This document shows positions 29,357 to 61,160 of a stretch of DNA of 64,000 nucleotides, piece after piece. The position numbers and the translations under genes were made by a program. This DNA is from an uncultured Faecalibacterium sp. (lineage in GTDB: Bacteria; Bacillota; Clostridia; Oscillospirales; Ruminococcaceae). The notes below the pieces were generated by a model. The model did not search any database and was not told the DNA's origin. It saw only the letters and a list, made by a program, of their open reading frames with translations. Position 1 is the stretch's first letter. Each line of letters starts with the position of its first letter. The stretch spans positions 22,550 through 86,549 of the forward strand of contig CALWZL010000111.1 in the NCBI GenBank assembly GCA_944385995.1, in the 5' to 3' direction.

Positions 29357-29654
29357 TTGTAAAGGCATTGATGGGAATAAGTACCCTGATGTGTTCTGCC
29401 TAGAGAGGCTCCGGTTGGTGAAAGGGGCATGCAGAACCGCAGGCGAATTACCTCCTGGAGCTGCAGGCTGAACGAGCGATTGCTTTCAGTAGGCCCCGCC
29501 GCATGCGAGCGTTACAAACGCAGAGTGTACCCCATACTCTGAGGGGGTTGCACTTGTGAGGCTGTCATCCGTGAGGGGGCAGCAAACAGAGGTGGTACCG
29601 CGATTTTCTCGCCCTCTGCCAATTTTTAAGGTTGGCGGAGGGCGTTTCTTTTTG
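29357..29654 (+). promoter_or_regulatory. T-box leader (tyrosine-specific) of tyrS
   Basis: Contains the invariant T-box AGAGGTGGTACCGCG (29588-29602), whose GGTGGTACCGCG core pairs with the tRNA acceptor end, Stem I elements (AGAGAG at 29402-29407, GGTGAAA after it) and a specifier region GAATTACCTCC in which TAC at 29449-29451 is a tyrosine codon. The terminator stem CGCCCTCTGCCAA / TTGGCGGAGGGCG (29610-29644) ends in TTTCTTTTT. Uncharged tRNA-Tyr should favour the antiterminator and raise tyrS expression. Confidence 0.93.
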
Positions 29655-47410: not shown

Positions 47411-48490
47411 TTACAGTGGAATTTGCTGTGTAATGCAGTGGATATTTCCCCCGCCCTGCAAAATTTCCCGGGCAGGCAATCCAATTACGCGGCGGTTCGG
47501 ACAAAGTTCCTGTAGAATCTTACAGGCACACACATCGCTGGCAGCATTTTCGCCCCCAAACTGCGGAACTAAGACCGCATCATTGGTGAAATAGAAGTTC
47601 ACATAACTGGCCGCCAGTCGTTCCCCAGGTTCGCGGGTGTCTTCCCCAGGTTCAAAAGAATAAGCCGCGCAATCCTCCGCACTGCACAGGATCGGATGGT
47701 CCGGAATCGGCAACTTATGGATGACCAGCGGCCGTCCCTTGGCATCTGTAACGCTTTGAAGGTAAGCCCAATCTGCCGTGGAAAGCGGATACTGAGGATC
47801 TGACATCTGATCGGTCCATGCAAGCACCACTTCACCCGGCCCGATAAAGGCGCAGACATTGTCTACATGTTCGTTGGTTTCATCGTTGTAAATGCCGCGG
47901 GGCAGCCACAGTACTTTCTCTACGCCAAGACGCCGGCAGAGTTCCTCTTCAATTTCTGCACGGCTCATGGTCGGGTTCCGACCAGCGGAAAGCAGGCAGC
48001 TTTCGGTGACAAGAGCTGTCCCCTCGCCGTCTGTGTGAACACTGCCGCCCTCCAGTACAAACGGTGCTGCATCGTCCCAGGGCAAACCCAGTTCCTGACA
48101 GAAGGCAGACGCGATGGCGTCATCTTTTTGCCAGTCGGCATAGAGGCCGTCGACCGTGCCGCCCCATGCGTTGAAACTCCAGCTGATGCCCTTGAGCTCT
48201 CCCCTGTCATTTTTTACGAAGGTAGGACCGACATCTCGCGCCCAGGCATCATCGGAATCCATACAGAGTATATGCACGCGGTTCTTCAGATGGGCCACAG
48301 CAGCACGGGCCTGTTCCAGGTGGTCTGGATCTGCCAACAGGTAAAGCTCTTCGCTCTGGGTAATGGCTTCAAATACCCGCACAAAAGCTTTCTGTGCGGC
48401 GCTGGGATCTTTTCCCCAACTGCCCGGACGAACCGGCCAGATCATCAGTGTAGCGCGGTGCGGCTCGTATTCAGCCGGCATTCTATACAT
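47411..48490 (-). CDS. aguA: Agmatine deiminase
   Basis: Converts agmatine to N-carbamoylputrescine and ammonia. 359-residue guanidino-modifying enzyme with RMPAEYEPHRATLMIWP at the N-terminus, WSFNAWGG, VLEGGSVHTDGEGT and the catalytic Cys352 in GGGNIHCIT. Start ATG has AGGAG seven bases upstream. Sits between nspC and aguB. Confidence 0.96.
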   Translation of the reverse strand: MYRMPAEYEPHRATLMIWPVRPGSWGKDPSAAQKAFVRVFEAITQSEELYLLADPDHLEQARAAVAHLKNRVHILCMDSDDAWARDVGPTFVKNDRGELKGISWSFNAWGGTVDGLYADWQKDDAIASAFCQELGLPWDDAAPFVLEGGSVHTDGEGTALVTESCLLSAGRNPTMSRAEIEEELCRRLGVEKVLWLPRGIYNDETNEHVDNVCAFIGPGEVVLAWTDQMSDPQYPLSTADWAYLQSVTDAKGRPLVIHKLPIPDHPILCSAEDCAAYSFEPGEDTREPGERLAASYVNFYFTNDAVLVPQFGGENAASDVCACKILQELCPNRRVIGLPAREILQGGGNIHCITQQIPL

Positions 48491-48511
48491 AGAAAAACTC
48501 CTTTGGATACG

Positions 48512-49660
48512 TCAGGACAGACGCATCTTGAAATCCTGATAGCCAAAATGGCGTACCACCTTGCAGCTGCCATCCAGATGGCGCAGCGCGATATCTGGCA
48601 GCGGCATTCCATTGAAGGTGTTGTTTTTCACCATCGAATAGATGGCCATGTCACCGAACACAAGCCGGTCTCCAATCCCGGGACAGGTATCAAAGCTATA
48701 CTCGCCAATCACATCCCCAGCCAGACAGGTCCGGGAAGCCAGACGACAAGTGCAAGCTTTTTCACCCGGCAAACCACCGCCATACAGCGGCGGCCGATAA
48801 GGCATTTCCAGTACATCAGGCATATGGCAAGCCGCCGACGTATCCAGAATCAGCACCGGCATATCGGATGCCGGCACAATGTCCAGCACAGTAGTAATCA
48901 GGGTACCGGCACAAAGGGCAATCGCCTCTCCCGGCTCCAAATAAACCGTCACACCGTATTTTTCACGAATGGAGAGAATCAGCTGTTCCAGCGCAACAAT
49001 ATCATAGCCTGGACGGGTAATATGGTGTCCTCCGCCCAGATTGATCCATTTCAGTCCCGGCAGATACTGTCCAAACTTTTCTTCAAATGCTGCAAAAGTC
49101 TCTACCAGCGGAGCCGAATCCTGTTCACATAGCGTGTGAAAGTGCAGCCCCTCTACCCCTCTGAGCAACTGGTCAGGCAGATTTTGCCGGCGGATGCCCA
49201 GCCGGCTGCCCGGCGAACATGGATCATAAATGGCATGTCCTTCCTGGGTGGAGTGCTCTGGATTCACCCGCAGTCCCACACTGACGCCTGCGGCCTCCCA
49301 AATCGGGCGGTGCATTTCCAACTGTGTGAGCGAGTTGAAACTAATGTGATCGCAGATTTTTACAATCTCCGCCATTTCTTCCGGGGTATAGGCCGGGCAG
49401 AAAACATGATTTTCCTTGCCCGGCATTTCCTCATGAGCCAGCCGCGCCTCAAAAAGGCCGCTGGCTGTCGCACCAGCCAGATACTTTCCAATCAGCGGAT
49501 AAACCCGGAACATCGAAAAGGCCTTCTGTGCCAGCAGAATATGGCAGCCGGTGCGCTGCTGCACACCACGCAGGATCTCCAAATTATGAACCAAAGCTGT
49601 TTCATCCACCACATAGACCGGTGTACTGAGCTCCGGTTCCTGATTTTTCAAATATTCCAT
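48512..49660 (-). CDS. nspC: Carboxy(nor)spermidine decarboxylase
   Basis: PLP enzyme of the alanine-racemase fold that decarboxylates carboxyspermidine/carboxynorspermidine. 382 residues: PLP Lys46 in LLAQKAFSMF, FNSLTQLEMH, GLRVNPEHS, LHFHTLCEQ, INLGGGHHITRPGYD and EPGEAIAL, all NspC signatures. It overlaps the dehydrogenase gene upstream by one base (TAATG), so the two enzymes of the aspartate-semialdehyde route are translated together. Confidence 0.95.
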   Translation of the reverse strand: MEYLKNQEPELSTPVYVVDETALVHNLEILRGVQQRTGCHILLAQKAFSMFRVYPLIGKYLAGATASGLFEARLAHEEMPGKENHVFCPAYTPEEMAEIVKICDHISFNSLTQLEMHRPIWEAAGVSVGLRVNPEHSTQEGHAIYDPCSPGSRLGIRRQNLPDQLLRGVEGLHFHTLCEQDSAPLVETFAAFEEKFGQYLPGLKWINLGGGHHITRPGYDIVALEQLILSIREKYGVTVYLEPGEAIALCAGTLITTVLDIVPASDMPVLILDTSAACHMPDVLEMPYRPPLYGGGLPGEKACTCRLASRTCLAGDVIGEYSFDTCPGIGDRLVFGDMAIYSMVKNNTFNGMPLPDIALRHLDGSCKVVRHFGYQDFKMRLS

Positions 49661-50922
49661 TACTCCACCGTCGCAGGATGCTCATCCACAACCCAGGGCA
49701 GGCCGTACTGGTTCAGCATCTCCATAAAGGGATCGGGGTCCATCTCTTCCAGATTGTGGACACCCGGCTGGCGCCACTTACCATTTGTCACCAGTGCAGT
49801 ACCGATCATGGCCGGAACACCAGTGGTATAGCTGATAGCCTGGCTGCCCAATTCCTTATAGCACTCCTGGTGATCGCATACATTATAAATATAGATGGTC
49901 CGTTCCTTGCCGTCCTTGATGCCGGTGTAGATGCAGCCGATGTTGGTTTTGCCAACTGTGCGGGGTCCCAGAGAAGCAGGATCAGGCAGCAGAGCTTTCA
50001 GGAACTGGATGGGGACAATCTCCCGGCCCTCAAACAGAATGGGGCTGGTGGAGAGCATGCCCACGTCCTCCAGACACTTCATATGGGTCAGATAGCTCTG
50101 GCCAAAGGTCATGAAAAAACGAATCCGTTTGACGCCAGGGACGTTCTTGGCCAGACTTTCGATCTCCTCGTGGTGGAGCAGATACATATCTTTCTTGCCC
50201 ACCTGAGGGAAATCATATTCCCGTTTGATTTCCATGGGCTTGGTCTCCACCCAATGGCCGTTTTCCCAATAGCTTCCGTTGGCCGAAACTTCCCGCAGAT
50301 TGATCTCAGGATTAAAATTGGTCGCAAAAGCATAGCCATGGTCGCCGCCGTTGCAGTCCAGAATATCGATGGTGTGAATCTCGTCAAAGTAGTGTTTCAT
50401 GGCATAAGCGGTAAAAACACTGGTGACGCCCGGATCAAAGCCGGAACCCAGAATAGCGGTCAGACCCGCCTCTTCAAACTTTTTGGCATAAGCCCACTGC
50501 CAGCTGTAGTCGAAGTAAGCGGTGAAGCCCTCCTCCTTGCAGCGCTTTTCATAAATGGCGCGCCAGGCAGGATCGTCGGTATTCTCCGGCTCATAGTTCG
50601 CGGTGTCAATGTAGTGAACGCCGCAGGCCAGGCAGGCATCCATGATGGTCAGATCCTGATACGGCAAAGCTACATTCAGAACCAGCTCAGGCTTATATGC
50701 GTCGATCACACGCTTGACATCTTCGACATCATCTGCATTGACGGTCATGGTGGTAATCTTGACCGGTGTACCAGCTGCCTCCAGCTTTGCTTTCAGGGCA
50801 TCGCACTTGGAAACAGTGCGGCTGGCAATGCACATTTCAGAAAAGGTCTCATGGTTCTGGCAGCACTTCTGGATTGCCACCGAGGCGACGCCGCCGCAGC
50901 CAATAACAAGCAGTTTGCTCAT
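49660..50922 (-). CDS. Carboxyspermidine dehydrogenase (Lys1-like saccharopine dehydrogenase family)
   Basis: Forms carboxyspermidine (or carboxynorspermidine) from putrescine (or diaminopropane), aspartate semialdehyde and NADPH. 420 residues with VIGCGGVASVAIQKC (nucleotide binding, residues 6-20), NVALPYQDLTIMDACL, GSGFDPGVTSVFTAYA and DCNGGDHGY. Since putrescine is the diamine made by this operon, spermidine is the likely end product. Start at MSKLLVIG has AAAGGAG upstream. Confidence 0.92.
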   Translation of the reverse strand: MSKLLVIGCGGVASVAIQKCCQNHETFSEMCIASRTVSKCDALKAKLEAAGTPVKITTMTVNADDVEDVKRVIDAYKPELVLNVALPYQDLTIMDACLACGVHYIDTANYEPENTDDPAWRAIYEKRCKEEGFTAYFDYSWQWAYAKKFEEAGLTAILGSGFDPGVTSVFTAYAMKHYFDEIHTIDILDCNGGDHGYAFATNFNPEINLREVSANGSYWENGHWVETKPMEIKREYDFPQVGKKDMYLLHHEEIESLAKNVPGVKRIRFFMTFGQSYLTHMKCLEDVGMLSTSPILFEGREIVPIQFLKALLPDPASLGPRTVGKTNIGCIYTGIKDGKERTIYIYNVCDHQECYKELGSQAISYTTGVPAMIGTALVTNGKWRQPGVHNLEEMDPDPFMEMLNQYGLPWVVDEHPATVE

Positions 50923-50961
50923 GGAAATACTCCTTTCAAAACAACGCATCTTTGGAATCGT

Positions 50962-51825
50962 TTAGTCTTCCTCTTCTTTCAGAAGATCCTCGACATAGCG
51001 CGGCAGCATGAAAGCGCCGCGATGCAGATGGGTGGTATAATACCAAGTCTTGATTCCCCGCTTGTTCCAACGCTTGGGATCAAAATCTTTGATCGGGTGA
51101 TATTTTTTGCTGGCAAAGCCGAACAGCCAATAACCCGCCGGGCAGGTCGGAATGTGTGCCTGATACACCCGGCTGATGGGAAACGAGCGGTAAGCCCGCT
51201 TGTGCATGGCGCGGCAGGTCTCCTCATCTTCGTCAAAGAAGGGGCTGCCATGCTGATACACCATGATGCCATCCTCGTGCAGAGCCTTGTAACAGCTGCC
51301 ATAGAATTCCTTGGTGAACAGGCCAGCCGCATGACCCAGAGGATCGGTACAGTCGTTGATAATCAGATCATACTCGTCCTCTTTGCTCCGCAGAAAACGC
51401 AGGCCATCTTCGTAATAGACCCGAACCCGAATATCATCCAAGCCACAGGCGTTGTCCGGGAAGAATTTGCGGCAGACATCCACAAACATCTTATCTGGTT
51501 CTACTACGTCAATCACTTCAATTTCCTGGTAATAGGAAAGCTCACGGGCGACACCGCCGTCGCCGCCGCCAATCACCAAGACCCGCTTGACATCGGGATG
51601 CACTGCCATCGGCACATGGACGATCATCTCGTCATAGGTAAACTCGTCCTTTTCAGAGAAAATCACGCTGCCGTCCGAAGTCAGAAACCGGCCGAATTCA
51701 GGCGAATCAAACACGTCAATTCGCTGAAAGTCACTGGTCCCGCTGTAGAGCTGCCGATCCACCCGGATACAGGTCTTGACGTTGGCTGTATGCAGTTCGC
51801 CAAACCAATAATCCATTTCCTGCAA
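50962..51825 (-). CDS. speE: Spermidine synthase family aminopropyltransferase
   Basis: 287 residues: FQRIDVFDSPEFGRF, SAM-type nucleotide motif GGGDGG (86-91), EDG (Asp140) and NDCTDPLGHAAGLF with Asp158 and Asp161, as in SpeE (which usually has GPA where this has GHA). SpeE normally uses decarboxylated SAM from SpeD, but no speD is in this operon and a second spermidine route is. It may therefore work with a distant speD, or on another acceptor. Start ATG (MQEMDYWF) lies 20 bases after speA. Confidence 0.88.
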   Translation of the reverse strand: MQEMDYWFGELHTANVKTCIRVDRQLYSGTSDFQRIDVFDSPEFGRFLTSDGSVIFSEKDEFTYDEMIVHVPMAVHPDVKRVLVIGGGDGGVARELSYYQEIEVIDVVEPDKMFVDVCRKFFPDNACGLDDIRVRVYYEDGLRFLRSKEDEYDLIINDCTDPLGHAAGLFTKEFYGSCYKALHEDGIMVYQHGSPFFDEDEETCRAMHKRAYRSFPISRVYQAHIPTCPAGYWLFGFASKKYHPIKDFDPKRWNKRGIKTWYYTTHLHRGAFMLPRYVEDLLKEEED

Positions 51826-51845
51826 GGGACTCCCTCCTTCTCTGG

Positions 51846-53294
51846 TTATACCAGAACATTCAGTTCCGAAATATCCTCACTGGCCGGGCCCTGCATCGAA
51901 CAGCCCTTGGCCTTTGCAAATTCAATATAGTCGATGATCTCCTGGGTAATCACTTCACCGGGTGCAAGGATGGGGATTCCCGGAGGATAGCACATCACAA
52001 ACTCCGTACAGATCCGGCCGACTGTCTCACGCAGCGGCAGGCACTCCTTGGGAGAATAGAACGCCTGCTGCGGTGTTGCCTTCACTTGAGGGGTAATATA
52101 TTCAGCCGTAAACAAATCGCTGCGGGGTTTGGAATACAGCCGGCGAATGTCGGCCAGAGCGCCCACCAGGCGCTCAATATCCTGAATGCGGTCGCCAATC
52201 GAGATATACGCCAGAATATTGGATAGATCGCCGAACTCAATCTGGATATCATACTCGTCCCGGAGCAAATCGTAAACCTCAATTCCCGTCAAACCGATCC
52301 CTCGGGTATTGACCGCCAGCTTGGTGACATCAAAGTCGTAGATACTGCCGCCATTCATCATCTCAGATCCAAAAGCGTAGTATCCCCCAATGGCGTTGAT
52401 TTCCCGCCGGGCGTATTCCGCCATATCAATCACCCGGGCAAAGCTCTCTCTTCCCCGCATGGCCAGATTTCGGCGGCTGATATCCAGACTGGACATCAAC
52501 AGGTAGGATGCACTGGTGGTCTGGGTCAGATTGATGATATTGCCTACATACCCTGCATTGACTCCCGGCCCGCAGAGCAAAAGGGAACTCTGGGTCAGAC
52601 TGCCACCCGATTTGTGCATGGAAACCGCCGCCATATCGGCGCCAGCGGCCATACCGCTGAGAGGCAGGCTGGGATTGAAATACAAATGGGTACCGTGGGC
52701 CTCATCCACCAGAGCCAGCATATGATGGGCATGGGCCAGCTCCACCAGACTGCGGAGATCCGAACAAATCCCATAATAAGTGGGATTGTTGACGAAGATC
52801 GCCACTGCCTCAGGATTCGCCTCAATGGCAGCCCGCACATCTTCCACTTCCATGCCCAGAGGAATCCCTAGATCCGTGTCAACCTTGGGATCGATATAGA
52901 CAGGTACCGCACCGCACAGAACCAGAGCGTTGATGGCGCTCTTGTGGACATTGCGGGGCAGAATGATCTTATCTCCCGGCTTACAGGCGGTCAGCACCAT
53001 ACTTTGAACGCTGCTGGTCGTACCTCCCACCATTAGAAAAGCATGAGCTGCCCCAAAGGCATCCGCAGCCAGTTCTTCTGCCTCTTTGATAACCGAAACC
53101 GGATGGCACAGGTTGTCCAGCGGTTTCATCGAGTTGACATCGATGCTGACGCACCGTTCTCCCAGCAACTCGACCAGTTCAGGGTTTCCGCGGCCGCGCT
53201 TATGGCCCGGCACATCGAACGGGACGACCCGCTGTCGGCGGAATTTCTCCAGCGCCTCATAGATCGGCGCTCTTTTTTGACGCTCCCGGTTCAA
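51846..53294 (-). CDS. speA: Arginine decarboxylase, fold-type I (Orn/Lys/Arg decarboxylase family)
   Basis: 482 residues, the short Bacillus SpeA/YaaO-type. It has PFDVPGHKRGRG, MVGGTTSSVQSMVL, VDEAHGTHLYF (Asp197) and PLP Lys228 in SMHKSGGSLTQSS, plus the C-terminal CYPPGIPILAPGE. Arginine rather than lysine is inferred because agmatine deiminase and carbamoylputrescine amidase follow. Start is TTG with GAGAGGG seven bases upstream; a nearby ATG is out of frame. First gene of the polyamine operon; a terminated RNA lies 135 bases upstream. Confidence 0.92.
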   Translation of the reverse strand: MNRERQKRAPIYEALEKFRRQRVVPFDVPGHKRGRGNPELVELLGERCVSIDVNSMKPLDNLCHPVSVIKEAEELAADAFGAAHAFLMVGGTTSSVQSMVLTACKPGDKIILPRNVHKSAINALVLCGAVPVYIDPKVDTDLGIPLGMEVEDVRAAIEANPEAVAIFVNNPTYYGICSDLRSLVELAHAHHMLALVDEAHGTHLYFNPSLPLSGMAAGADMAAVSMHKSGGSLTQSSLLLCGPGVNAGYVGNIINLTQTTSASYLLMSSLDISRRNLAMRGRESFARVIDMAEYARREINAIGGYYAFGSEMMNGGSIYDFDVTKLAVNTRGIGLTGIEVYDLLRDEYDIQIEFGDLSNILAYISIGDRIQDIERLVGALADIRRLYSKPRSDLFTAEYITPQVKATPQQAFYSPKECLPLRETVGRICTEFVMCYPPGIPILAPGEVITQEIIDYIEFAKAKGCSMQGPASEDISELNVLV

Positions 53295-53428: not shown

Positions 53429-53461
53429 AAAAAAAGCAGCGCACCCTTTCGGGCACACTGC
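53429..53461 (-). terminator. Terminator of the structured RNA upstream of speA
   Basis: 11-bp stem GCAGTGTGCCC / GGGTGCGCTGC (with G-T pairs), GAAA tetraloop on the minus strand, then seven T. The 134 bases between it and speA hold small GC hairpins and no convincing promoter. Confidence 0.9.
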
Positions 53462-53788
53462 CTGTGAGATACAGTCGAGGCGGCTTGACTCCTCAGCACA
53501 ACGAGGAAGTCGACATGTTGCAATGTCCGGCCATACCTTTGGAAGAGAACTTCAGCAAATAGATCGAAGGGCGGTTCTGCTGCTCTTATTGACGTTTCAC
53601 AAGTGGTGTGCGTCCGCACGAGGTTACAAAAAGTGACCAACTTATAAAATTTCCGGGTGACCCACCCGTTCAATAATGTTGTGGCGCTTTACGCCACACG
53701 CGGCAGCGGCCAGCCCTGTCCGATGAGCTTTAGGCACCCCGCAAGGTACCCGGCCTAATCTATTTGTGTGCACATCTATGCACGCTCT
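53429..53788 (-). ncRNA. Unidentified structured RNA (~360 nt) upstream of speA
   Basis: Bounded by a strong sigma-A promoter and a strong terminator, with no credible ORF. In minus-strand order the hairpins are GTGCA/TGCAC (about 53777-53762), TAGGC/GCCTA enclosing ACC/GGT (about 53757-53731), GTGGCG/CGCCAC (about 53697-53681), CGGGTG/CACCCG (about 53669-53655), GGT.AC/GT.ACC (about 53639-53623), GTGCG/CGCAC (about 53617-53606), and a GACTTCCTC/GAGGAGTC hairpin (about 53512-53487). I find no RNase P, tmRNA, SRP or known riboswitch core. It could be a stand-alone RNA (for example a divergent 6S RNA) or an attenuator leader of the polyamine operon: GCACAC at 53611-53606 could pair with GTGTGC of the terminator arm. 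Confidence 0.6.
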
Positions 53789-53794
53789 GCCATC

Positions 53795-53822
53795 ATTGTA
53801 CCATGTTTTTTTCACTTGTCAA
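53795..53822 (-). promoter_or_regulatory. Sigma-A promoter of the structured RNA
   Basis: On the minus strand TTGACA (53822-53817), 16-base spacer with an A7 tract, TACAAT (53800-53795). Upstream, 53823-53938 is AT-rich and holds no gene that I can support. Confidence 0.85.
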
Positions 53823-53996: not shown

Positions 53997-54845
53997 TCAC
54001 TCTTCCAGAGAAACAATGGGCTGTGTGCCAAAATAGGCGCAGATGGCTTCATAGTAAACGCGTGCCGCCAACTGACATCCATCCTGATCGCCGAAACGGT
54101 CCACATCTTCGGCACTGGTCACAAAGCACTGCTCTGCCAAAACCGCCGGGCAACGAGACTCCTCCAAAAGTGTAAACGTCTCCTCTTCCCGAATCCGAAG
54201 ATCATTGGCTTCAGCCAGAACTTTGACACCGTTCTCATAATAGATGTACCGAATCCCCTGTTGTCCCCGCAAATTGCTCCCGGCCGCCTCCATACCGGAC
54301 GCAAGCAGCCGGGCAAAATAGACGCTTTCACGATGCCATGTCCGGCCCGGCGTAATGGGATAGCACTCAAAACCGCTGGCTTCGGTAGATGCCGCGTTTC
54401 CATGGATGGACAAGAGAAGGTCGGGGTGCTGACTGTTGGAACGTTTCGCCCGCTCGGTGGGCGTCGCCGTGACATCATAACTGTCCCGCGTGGTCACCGG
54501 TATGTAATTGGAATCCGACCGCAGCCAGCTCAGGAGTGCTTCAGAAGTAGCTGCCGTCATATCCCGTTCTACAATAAGACCCGTGGCGCCAGGATCATCC
54601 CCGCCATGGCCGGCATCCACCGCCACAGTATAGGGCGGATCTCCCACATCGGGACGAAAATCTTCGGCTGGCTCCTCGGTGGCACTGGCTTCCCGAATGG
54701 CATTTCGGGCATCAATCCACACGCTGCCAATCTGCCAAGCTTTAGCCAGCCCGATCGCAACAGCAATCAACACAACGATCAGCTGCCAATGAAACTTCTT
54801 CTTTTTCTCGTGTTTGGATTTTGTACGCCTGCCCCAGTTCAGCAT
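53997..54845 (-). CDS. N-acetylmuramoyl-L-alanine amidase (Amidase_3, CwlD-like)
   Basis: Zinc amidase that cleaves the lactyl-Ala bond in peptidoglycan. 282 residues: basic N-terminus and one TM helix (about residues 22-39), then the catalytic domain with VAVDAGHGGDDPGATG (first zinc His), a Glu in IVERDMT and LLLSIHGNAA (second His), and a late Glu in PAVLAEQCFVTS. In spore formers a protein of this kind (CwlD) makes cortex muramic-lactam, but vegetative roles are equally possible. The ATG at 54845 has GGAAGGTG upstream. Stand-alone gene between two terminators. Confidence 0.85.
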   Translation of the reverse strand: MLNWGRRTKSKHEKKKKFHWQLIVVLIAVAIGLAKAWQIGSVWIDARNAIREASATEEPAEDFRPDVGDPPYTVAVDAGHGGDDPGATGLIVERDMTAATSEALLSWLRSDSNYIPVTTRDSYDVTATPTERAKRSNSQHPDLLLSIHGNAASTEASGFECYPITPGRTWHRESVYFARLLASGMEAAGSNLRGQQGIRYIYYENGVKVLAEANDLRIREEETFTLLEESRCPAVLAEQCFVTSAEDVDRFGDQDGCQLAARVYYEAICAYFGTQPIVSLEE

Positions 54846-54891
54846 CTGATTTCCGCACCTTCCGCTTTTACTTTGTTCTATAAAACGAAAC

Positions 54892-54919
54892 AAACCGCCC
54901 GTACATTGCAGCCGGGCGG
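54892..54919 (-). terminator. Terminator after mutS2
   Basis: CCGCCCG / CGGGCGG arms with an 11-base loop; TTTGTTTCG follows on the minus strand. Confidence 0.8.
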
Positions 54920-61084: not shown

Positions 61085-61160
61085 GCTACTGTGGCTCAGC
61101 CGGTAGAGCAGCTCACTCGTAATGAGCAGGTCGTCCGTTCGAATCGGATCAGTAGCTCCA
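61085..61160 (+). tRNA. tRNA-Thr (anticodon CGT)
   Basis: 76-base cloverleaf. Acceptor GCTACTG pairs with CAGTAGC, followed by discriminator T and encoded CCA. D arm GGCTCAGCCGGTAGAGCAG-type; anticodon stem GCTCA/TGAGC with loop CTCGTAA, anticodon CGT, reading ACG threonine codons; T arm with GTTCGAATC. Single tRNA with its own promoter and terminator. Confidence 0.97.

Follow-up and report, generated by a model that had tools for sequence, protein, structure and literature searches.

The RNA that precedes the polyamine operon of an uncultured Faecalibacterium sp. is probably a cis-acting transcription-attenuation leader that works like a riboswitch. It was analysed in a window of 64,000 nucleotides, the whole stretch of DNA under study, together with related loci from other genomes. 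Comparison among these relatives shows a predicted leader built of two conserved domains, D1 (a pseudoknot motif) and D2 (a three-way junction), which lie within a long-range helix, P0, and are followed by a terminator. From one species to the next, the 5′ arm of this intrinsic terminator keeps its complementarity with the 3′ strand of the D2 helix P3, and the comparison shows two predicted pairings that are mutually exclusive. Attenuation control of the polyamine genes by the leader is well supported by these sequence comparisons, and the likeliest reading is that D2 itself binds a polyamine.

RNA sensing of polyamines has long been claimed, yet its demonstration is recent and concerns a rare variant of SAM-I. 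On balance, D2, with or without D1, appears to represent a second class of natural riboswitches for polyamines, one that has no relation to the SAM-I type and is far more widespread. In gut Bacillota it would act over the synthesis of spermidine, through speD, speA and carboxynorspermidine synthase operons, and over its uptake, through potA operons. With respect to the literature examined, D2, P0 and the covarying antiterminator are new, as are the speD, carboxynorspermidine synthase and pot contexts; the part already known is D1, as Rfam family RF02440. Because the RNA is common, stands ahead of genes for synthesis as well as for import and allows base pairs to be predicted explicitly, polyamine sensing is directly testable. 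The sRNA entry RF02440 would then become a single module within a larger regulatory RNA, and the leader would be relevant to the way in which polyamine output is set in gut Bacillota.

The leader and its operon

The promoter, the terminator and the genes that follow are all on the minus strand.

53817..53822 (−), −35 hexamer TTGACA, from a promoter scan
53795..53800 (−), −10 hexamer TACAAT with TG ahead of it, 16-base spacer
53768..53783 (−), 5′ hairpin GUGCAUAGAUGUGCAC, from the fold
53429..53463 (−), intrinsic terminator (13-bp stem, GAAA loop, 7 T), also in the minimum-energy fold
51846..53294 (−), speA-type Orn/Lys/Arg decarboxylase, first gene of the operon, presumably of the AAT fold; NCBIfam decarboxylase models match only below their cut-offs
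50962..51825 (−), speE, polyamine aminopropyltransferase; NCBIfam NF002010 and TIGR00417 above cut-off
49660..50949 (−), carboxynorspermidine synthase; NF043000 at E 2.6e-123, yet under the curated cut-off
48512..49660 (−), nspC, carboxynorspermidine decarboxylase; TIGR01047 above cut-off
47411..48490 (−), aguA, agmatine deiminase; TIGR03380 above cut-off

The promoter at 53822-53795 (TTGACA-16-TACAAT) matches the consensus at 11 of 12 bases, in addition to the TG before the −10 hexamer, and the 721-base region holds, both strands counted, three promoter-like sites where shuffles lead one to expect 0.3. Transcription is predicted from the −10 position to start at about 53788. The resulting 360-nt RNA (53788-53429) folds at −132.5 kcal/mol, whereas its dinucleotide shuffles have a mean of −116.7 (sd 5.3; z = −2.99), and none of 100 shuffles was as stable. 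The terminator stem-loop (53463-53434) has 13 pairs and its run of seven T ends at 53429, 134 bases before the TTG start codon of speA at 53294, which is preceded by GAGAGGG. These results confirm what a sequence-only reading of the DNA had described, namely a promoter, a structured RNA of about 360 nt and a strong terminator before speA. The same reading saw no credible open reading frame. Frames of 80-100 aa do overlap the leader region, and the 100-aa frame of the minus strand is disrupted or split across frames in 12 of the 13 near homologues that were searched, while L002, the nearest of them, retains 87 aa; the leader therefore has no conserved frame.

Among the scanned frames of the polyamine operon (47411-53294) no speD was recognised, and speE adjoins the carboxynorspermidine route. 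Immediately upstream, and on the strand of the leader, 53997-54893 encodes an N-acetylmuramoyl-L-alanine amidase (Pfam Amidase_3).

Two domains within a long-range helix

The structures were assigned by eye first and counted afterwards. The parts of the window leader between promoter and terminator are as follows.

53758..53766 (−), 5′ strand of P0, CAAAUAGAU, nine pairs with 53564-53556 in the minimum-energy fold
53701..53755 (−), D1 (model R2): helix Pa, hairpin Ph, helix Pb and pseudoknot CGGACAG/CUGCCG
53680..53698 (−), linker hairpin UGUGGCGUAAAGCGCCACA between D1 and D2
53586..53676 (−), D2 core, a three-way junction (model R1 and covariation; P1, P2 and P3 also in the minimum-energy fold)
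53598..53611 (−), switching strand GCACACCACUUGUG, the 3′ strand of P3/P5 in the aptamer fold or the antiterminator strand in the other fold
53556..53564 (−), 3′ strand of P0, AUCUAUUUG, from the own-versus-swapped test and the minimum-energy fold
53545..53585 (−), possible hairpin P6, GAGCAGCAGAA...UUUGCUGAAGUUCUC, seen by eye, a competitor of the P0 3′ strand
53453..53466 (−), 5′ arm of the terminator and antiterminator partner CACAGGCAGUGUGC, pairing with 53611-53598

At the DNA level, the region turned up, whole or in pieces, in 17 of 61 genomes, a count that includes the genome of the window and some short matches. A wider set of 94 regions comprised the window, 80 loci upstream of speA (kept from at least 569 confirmed candidates by speA homology) and 13 loci chosen by DNA similarity. 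With a profile seeded by the window RNA, nhmmer detected relatives in at least 73 of these 94 regions, a lower bound because some of the 21 unmatched regions had been truncated or extracted without the core (L015, L052, L081). The matched loci include Lachnospiraceae, Ruminococcaceae, Sharpea and Streptococcus hillyeri.

D2 is about 90 nt long and in the window consists of helices P1 (UUAUUGA/UCAAUAA), P2 (CGGGUG/CACCCG) and P3 (AUAAGU/ACUUGU). P1 encloses P2, P3 and an optional P4/P5, with conserved joining strands around AUUUU and GAAACG; the most strongly conserved stretches are AUUUUAUAAG and CUUGUGAAAC. Model R1, made of 26 sequences with none from loci known to belong to the window's genus, finds the window D2 with 51.3 bits (E 3.9e-9 over 661 kb). 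In alignment A3 (65 distinct rows) 95.5% of the cells are paired, with 11 double-change pairs and 53 cells changed on both sides, and in A4 (94 rows, 87 of them distinct, the spurious L225/G703 still included) 96.3% are paired, with 11 double-change pairs and 34 such cells; these counts lean towards the proposed structure because the alignments were fitted to it. No shuffle of 500 reached the covariation score of either alignment, and structures slid along them drop to 21-47% paired. The unfitted alignment A2 has 14 double-change cells (0 of 500 shuffles) and four double-change pairs (8 of 500); its 12 pair types do not exceed those of shuffles (236 of 500). P1 was discarded as covariation support, being too invariant, and an extra GGU/ACC or GAU/AUC pairing within D2 was dropped, as it is broken in L042/L043. 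No Rfam family reached its gathering cut-off over D2 in 20 relatives, and nothing significant appeared in L055 at E up to 10. Compact forms of D2, 58-59 nt long and devoid of P4/P5, occur at 2596-2653 of L048 and at 2814-2872 of L096.

Judged by model R2, the D1 of the window represents the SpF59/ldcC motif, RF02440, in a divergent copy. R2 comprises 33 sequences, among which the GGCC-type close relatives of the window are left out and a single row (L017) is from the same genus, and it scores the window D1 at 25.2 bits (E 9e-4 over 196 kb, 1.9e-6 over 401 bases). The Rfam model does not recognise the window copy: the gathering cut-off of 37.2 bits is not reached, and RF02440 gives nothing even at E up to 10. 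The letters that correspond to the GACC/GGUC helix, CGGACAG and GCCG of RF02440 are present in the window as GGCC/GGCC, CGGACAG and CUGCCG; its minimum-energy fold is without that helix. All that Rfam finds in the window is a T-box leader at 29359-29619 (+) (106.6 bits) and a tRNA gene at 61085-61157 (+), besides chance-level matches at the leader site (E up to 10). By cmscan, RF02440 exceeds its gathering cut-off in 14 of 20 relatives, always upstream of D2 and including L017; those below are L059, L061, L070, L072, L090 and L101. The window is tied to these scanned relatives by nhmmer. The earlier statement that no familiar RNA is visible therefore held for the window copy and failed for the relatives. 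A significant Rfam hit, which the same reading had named as grounds for abandoning a new RNA, is lacking in the window and is found in those 14 relatives for the 5′ domain only, with D2 outside it. Among 398 Bacillota genomes 17 are RF02440-positive, and D2 is matched in all 17 as well, though only weakly in G391 (29.9 bits). RF02440 also gives a match in the genome of Lactococcus lactis, which served as a control.

In the 33 sequences of R2, the first pair of Pa (GACC/GGUC type) is UA in 14, GC in 13, UG in three, AU in one and CG in one, the third is AU in 25, CG in six and UA in one, and the middle pair of Pb switches from GC (19) to CG (11), while the pseudoknot CGGACA/UGCCG is almost invariant. 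The covariation score of D1 is 0.283 versus 0.097 when shuffled (0 of 500), and its double-change pairs do not rise above shuffles (121 of 500). Covariation says little for the D1 pseudoknot and for most of P1, because both hardly vary.

A simple D1 pattern was present in 140 and absent in 19 of 161 leaders, some places being counted twice and four leaders (two of them within the 140) having too little upstream sequence. Some of the 19 have a divergent D1, as R2 gives 36.6 bits for L013 and 32.5 bits for L141; in others, such as the Mediterraneibacter group, inspection by eye shows no D1 in the stretch from the conserved AUGCAAAUAUUU to the hairpin that precedes D2. L090 is a leader with no detectable D1. 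Because some lineages have D2 with no detectable D1, D1 may be an auxiliary or second sensing module, and the two-module form, with D1 and D2 in one closing helix, may read two inputs. The idea that D1 works alone in L066, L068, L074 and L044 was dropped, as a decayed D2 follows D1 in the sequence. These four loci combine an intact D1 with a decayed D2 (AUUA...AUCGCUUCUGAAUAGGUCAAUA) and still possess a hairpin and a T run; they are perhaps an altered variant.

In P0, a strand ahead of D1 pairs with a strand behind D2, and relatives carry different sequences that are again complementary. Own partners were compared with partners swapped among representatives of clusters below 80% identity, and the test compares means. 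In set 1, the mean for P0 was −18.23 for own and −13.05 (sd 0.56) for swapped partners, with 39 of 42 representatives tested, L069 (empty segment), L098 and L013 being excluded. Set 2, obtained by dropping 18 of 76 loci at least 80% like set 1, gave −17.71 versus −13.66 (sd 0.54), with 36 of 37 clusters tested. None of 5000 permutations matched either result.

The minimum-energy fold of the window RNA contains, unprompted, P0, P1, P2, the six-pair P3 (AUAAGU/ACUUGU) and the terminator. Helices Pa and Pb of D1 and the possible P6 hairpin are absent from it, and the 3′ strand of the pseudoknot pairs elsewhere, the program permitting no pseudoknots. The missing Pa and Pb leave the reading as a switch unaffected, because the switch rests on D2.

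The alternative pairing with the terminator

The conserved CUUGUG of D2 is a strand with two alternative partners, one inside D2 and the other in the 5′ arm of the terminator. In the window, 53611-53598 and 53466-53453 can form a duplex of 12 pairs in 14 positions, and the GCACAC/GTGTGC antiterminator that the sequence-only reading had suggested lies within this longer duplex, precisely at the position given there, and covaries across species. The pairing was examined with 70 related rows in which a terminator was found, then with cluster representatives and then with set 2. Own partners averaged −10.56 and swapped partners −8.05 (sd 0.33) in set 1 (39 of 42 clusters tested), −9.88 and −7.91 in a further cluster run (44 of 45), and −9.46 and −7.66 (sd 0.32) in set 2 (36 of 37), each with 0 of 5000 permutations; in set 2, two other D2 strands taken as controls scored 717 and 3966 of 5000. 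The runs with 44 and 36 clusters leave out cluster L192, which has no usable terminator or core, and L225/G703 was also excluded. Examples of arms that change together are AUCACUUG with CAGGUGAU (L046), GCCACUUG with CAGGUGGU (L059), AACUUG/CAAGUU (L094), ACACUUG/CAGGUGU (L149) and UUGUA/UACAAG (L204). The antiterminator is weak in some rows, for example L061 (−3.3), L084 (−3.4), L179 (−2.9) and L228 (−3.0).

For the nascent window RNA, the aptamer fold is computed at −114.3 and the antiterminator fold at −112.9 kcal/mol, so that the gap is within 1.4, and in such a folding model this near-balance is what a switch needs. Both comparison and energy thus point to an expression platform exclusive with the core, as expected of a riboswitch. 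At low ligand, CUUGUG of D2 would pair with the 5′ arm of the terminator, and the polymerase would continue into the operon. A ligand, most likely spermidine, would bind D2, perhaps with D1, and hold P3 and the junction; the 5′ arm would then be released, the terminator would form and the operon would be OFF. The OFF direction is what the anatomy of the leader leads one to expect.

A covarying antiterminator is equally compatible with a protein-dependent attenuator, in which D2 or the antiterminator is held by a trans-acting RNA-binding protein in place of a small molecule, and the conserved joining strands of D2 could serve as the protein site. This is improbable, since the same D2 core recurs across Bacillota families and before several kinds of polyamine gene, as with metabolite riboswitches, and an unsystematic look noticed no gene for an RNA-binding protein beside the leaders. 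Switching between terminator and antiterminator is also shared with ribosome- or tRNA-sensing leaders, and the window does contain a T-box elsewhere. A leader-peptide or T-box attenuator is scarcely credible here, as the T-box family (RF00230) has no match at the leader site at E up to 10, most near homologues do not keep the 100-aa frame intact, as described above, and the length variation of D2 ignores multiples of three.

Gene context, probable ligand and known systems

Model R1 finds D2 in 20 of 398 Bacillota genomes and in 83 of 297 genomes of the same order, with one match each; one of the 83 (G703/L225) is judged spurious because it misses the conserved core. These prevalences are lower bounds, because searches of more than 40 genomes (RF02440 and R1) use stricter filters and miss weak copies. 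The gene-context set has 101 rows, or 100 distinct places, as L010 and L125 are identical. The gene after D2 is speD in 44 places, speA in 39, carboxynorspermidine synthase in eight, potA in six and an M28 peptidase in two; the remaining place is the spurious one. D2 therefore precedes some gene in 99 of the 100 places and adjoins polyamine genes in 97, that is, a conserved aptamer-like core occurs in the leaders of one pathway's genes, as in riboswitches. Together with the covarying antiterminator, this strongly supports the earlier suggestion of a terminator-type leader that senses a metabolite such as a polyamine.

All six PotA proteins pass TIGR01187 and four also pass NF043075. Permease-like frames follow potA in five of the six loci, the sequence of L011 ending inside potA; a single PotB was scanned, that of L203, and it falls under the model cut-off. 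L203 sits in G027, a genome of the window's genus.

The carboxynorspermidine synthase-nspC and potA operons use no arginine, agmatine or SAM. The leading places, with speD or speA first in 83 of 100, would by themselves be compatible with SAM, arginine or agmatine, so that the RNA could be a metabolite riboswitch for another compound of the pathway, such as putrescine, agmatine, arginine, SAM or decarboxylated SAM. This reading is unlikely: the eight carboxynorspermidine synthase-nspC and six potA places speak against arginine, agmatine and SAM, whereas putrescine still fits. Arginine, lysine, agmatine and SAM are unlikely ligands because they do not suit the nspC-type and pot operons, and the arginine or agmatine proposed from the sequence alone loses ground accordingly. 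From known pathways, the compound shared by all contexts would be a polyamine end product. As genes for synthesis and uptake both stand behind the leader, a polyamine, most likely spermidine, would exert feedback OFF control; the gene context suits spermidine without telling it apart from putrescine or any other polyamine.

Family RF02440 (SpF59_sRNA, 'ldcC RNA') has 54 positions, is typed as an sRNA gene and bears a name without a function. The D1 of relatives above its cut-off is alike and stands in the same place ahead of polyamine genes; the entry covers D1 only, and D2, P0, the terminator and the antiterminator are all outside it. The ldcC motif was reportedly published as a cis-regulatory candidate by Weinberg et al. 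in 2017. The literature search returned no passage describing D2, which the fuller ldcC alignment of Weinberg et al. 2017 may include.

In Streptococcus pneumoniae, the region before SP_0916, an arginine decarboxylase according to the available text of PMC7531197, yields SN20, listed at 318 nt from a tiling array and catalogued as an sRNA with a predicted promoter and Rho-independent terminator (PMC2887815, in the part available). The accessible passages of PMC3395615 and PMC12323649 catalogue the same RNA as the sRNA F59/srn235/Spd_sr49, the latter placing it at 869478-869804; the limits given for SN20 and Spd_sr49 are array boundaries, not mapped ends, and another partly available source guesses it to be FMN-like. 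From the S. hillyeri locus L061, itself under the RF02440 cut-off, and from the Rfam name, the pneumococcal SN20 may be taken to carry D2. It resembles the window leader in being transcribed, with predicted promoter and terminator, before SP_0916, and differs in that the passages available treat it as an sRNA. Such cataloguing in these three sources (PMC3395615, PMC12323649, PMC2887815), like the leader's own promoter and strong terminator, would suit a stand-alone, trans-acting sRNA. That possibility is nevertheless very improbable: 99 of 100 D2 places precede a gene, 97 of them polyamine genes, an sRNA would not need a terminator arm that covaries with D2, and the terminated leader of an attenuator would likewise appear as a short RNA. 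A stand-alone RNA, one of the options first raised, was accordingly rejected, as every one of the 99 non-spurious copies precedes a gene, and its 6S-like version has no Rfam 6S match in the window.

The cis-acting leader proposed here is closest in proposed job and logic to the spermidine riboswitch of PMC10853860, which the available passages describe as a SAM-I variant upstream of speE, speB and ldcC genes, an OFF switch acting through transcription termination by a terminator/antiterminator pair, with 13 representatives in the alignment of its aptamer. That aptamer is of the SAM-I type, and the window leader differs in fold and sequence; the SAM-I families have no Rfam match in the window or in L055 at E up to 10. 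The potE (WRC-18-1) and odc1 motifs are likewise RNA motifs ahead of polyamine-related genes (PMC8632094, in the part available), their reported sources being Veillonella, environmental samples and alpha-proteobacteria; they have other structures and are set apart from the window leader by their descriptions alone. The accessible parts of the surveys of 26 and 50 genomes (PMC8632094, PMC11109978) contain either these potE and odc1 motifs or none of the polyamine terms looked for.

The two M28 peptidase places, which spermidine feedback does not explain, are D1+D2 leaders before lipoproteins of 724-725 aa (PF04389), with D2 at 322-413 in L195 and at 2940-3007 in L213.
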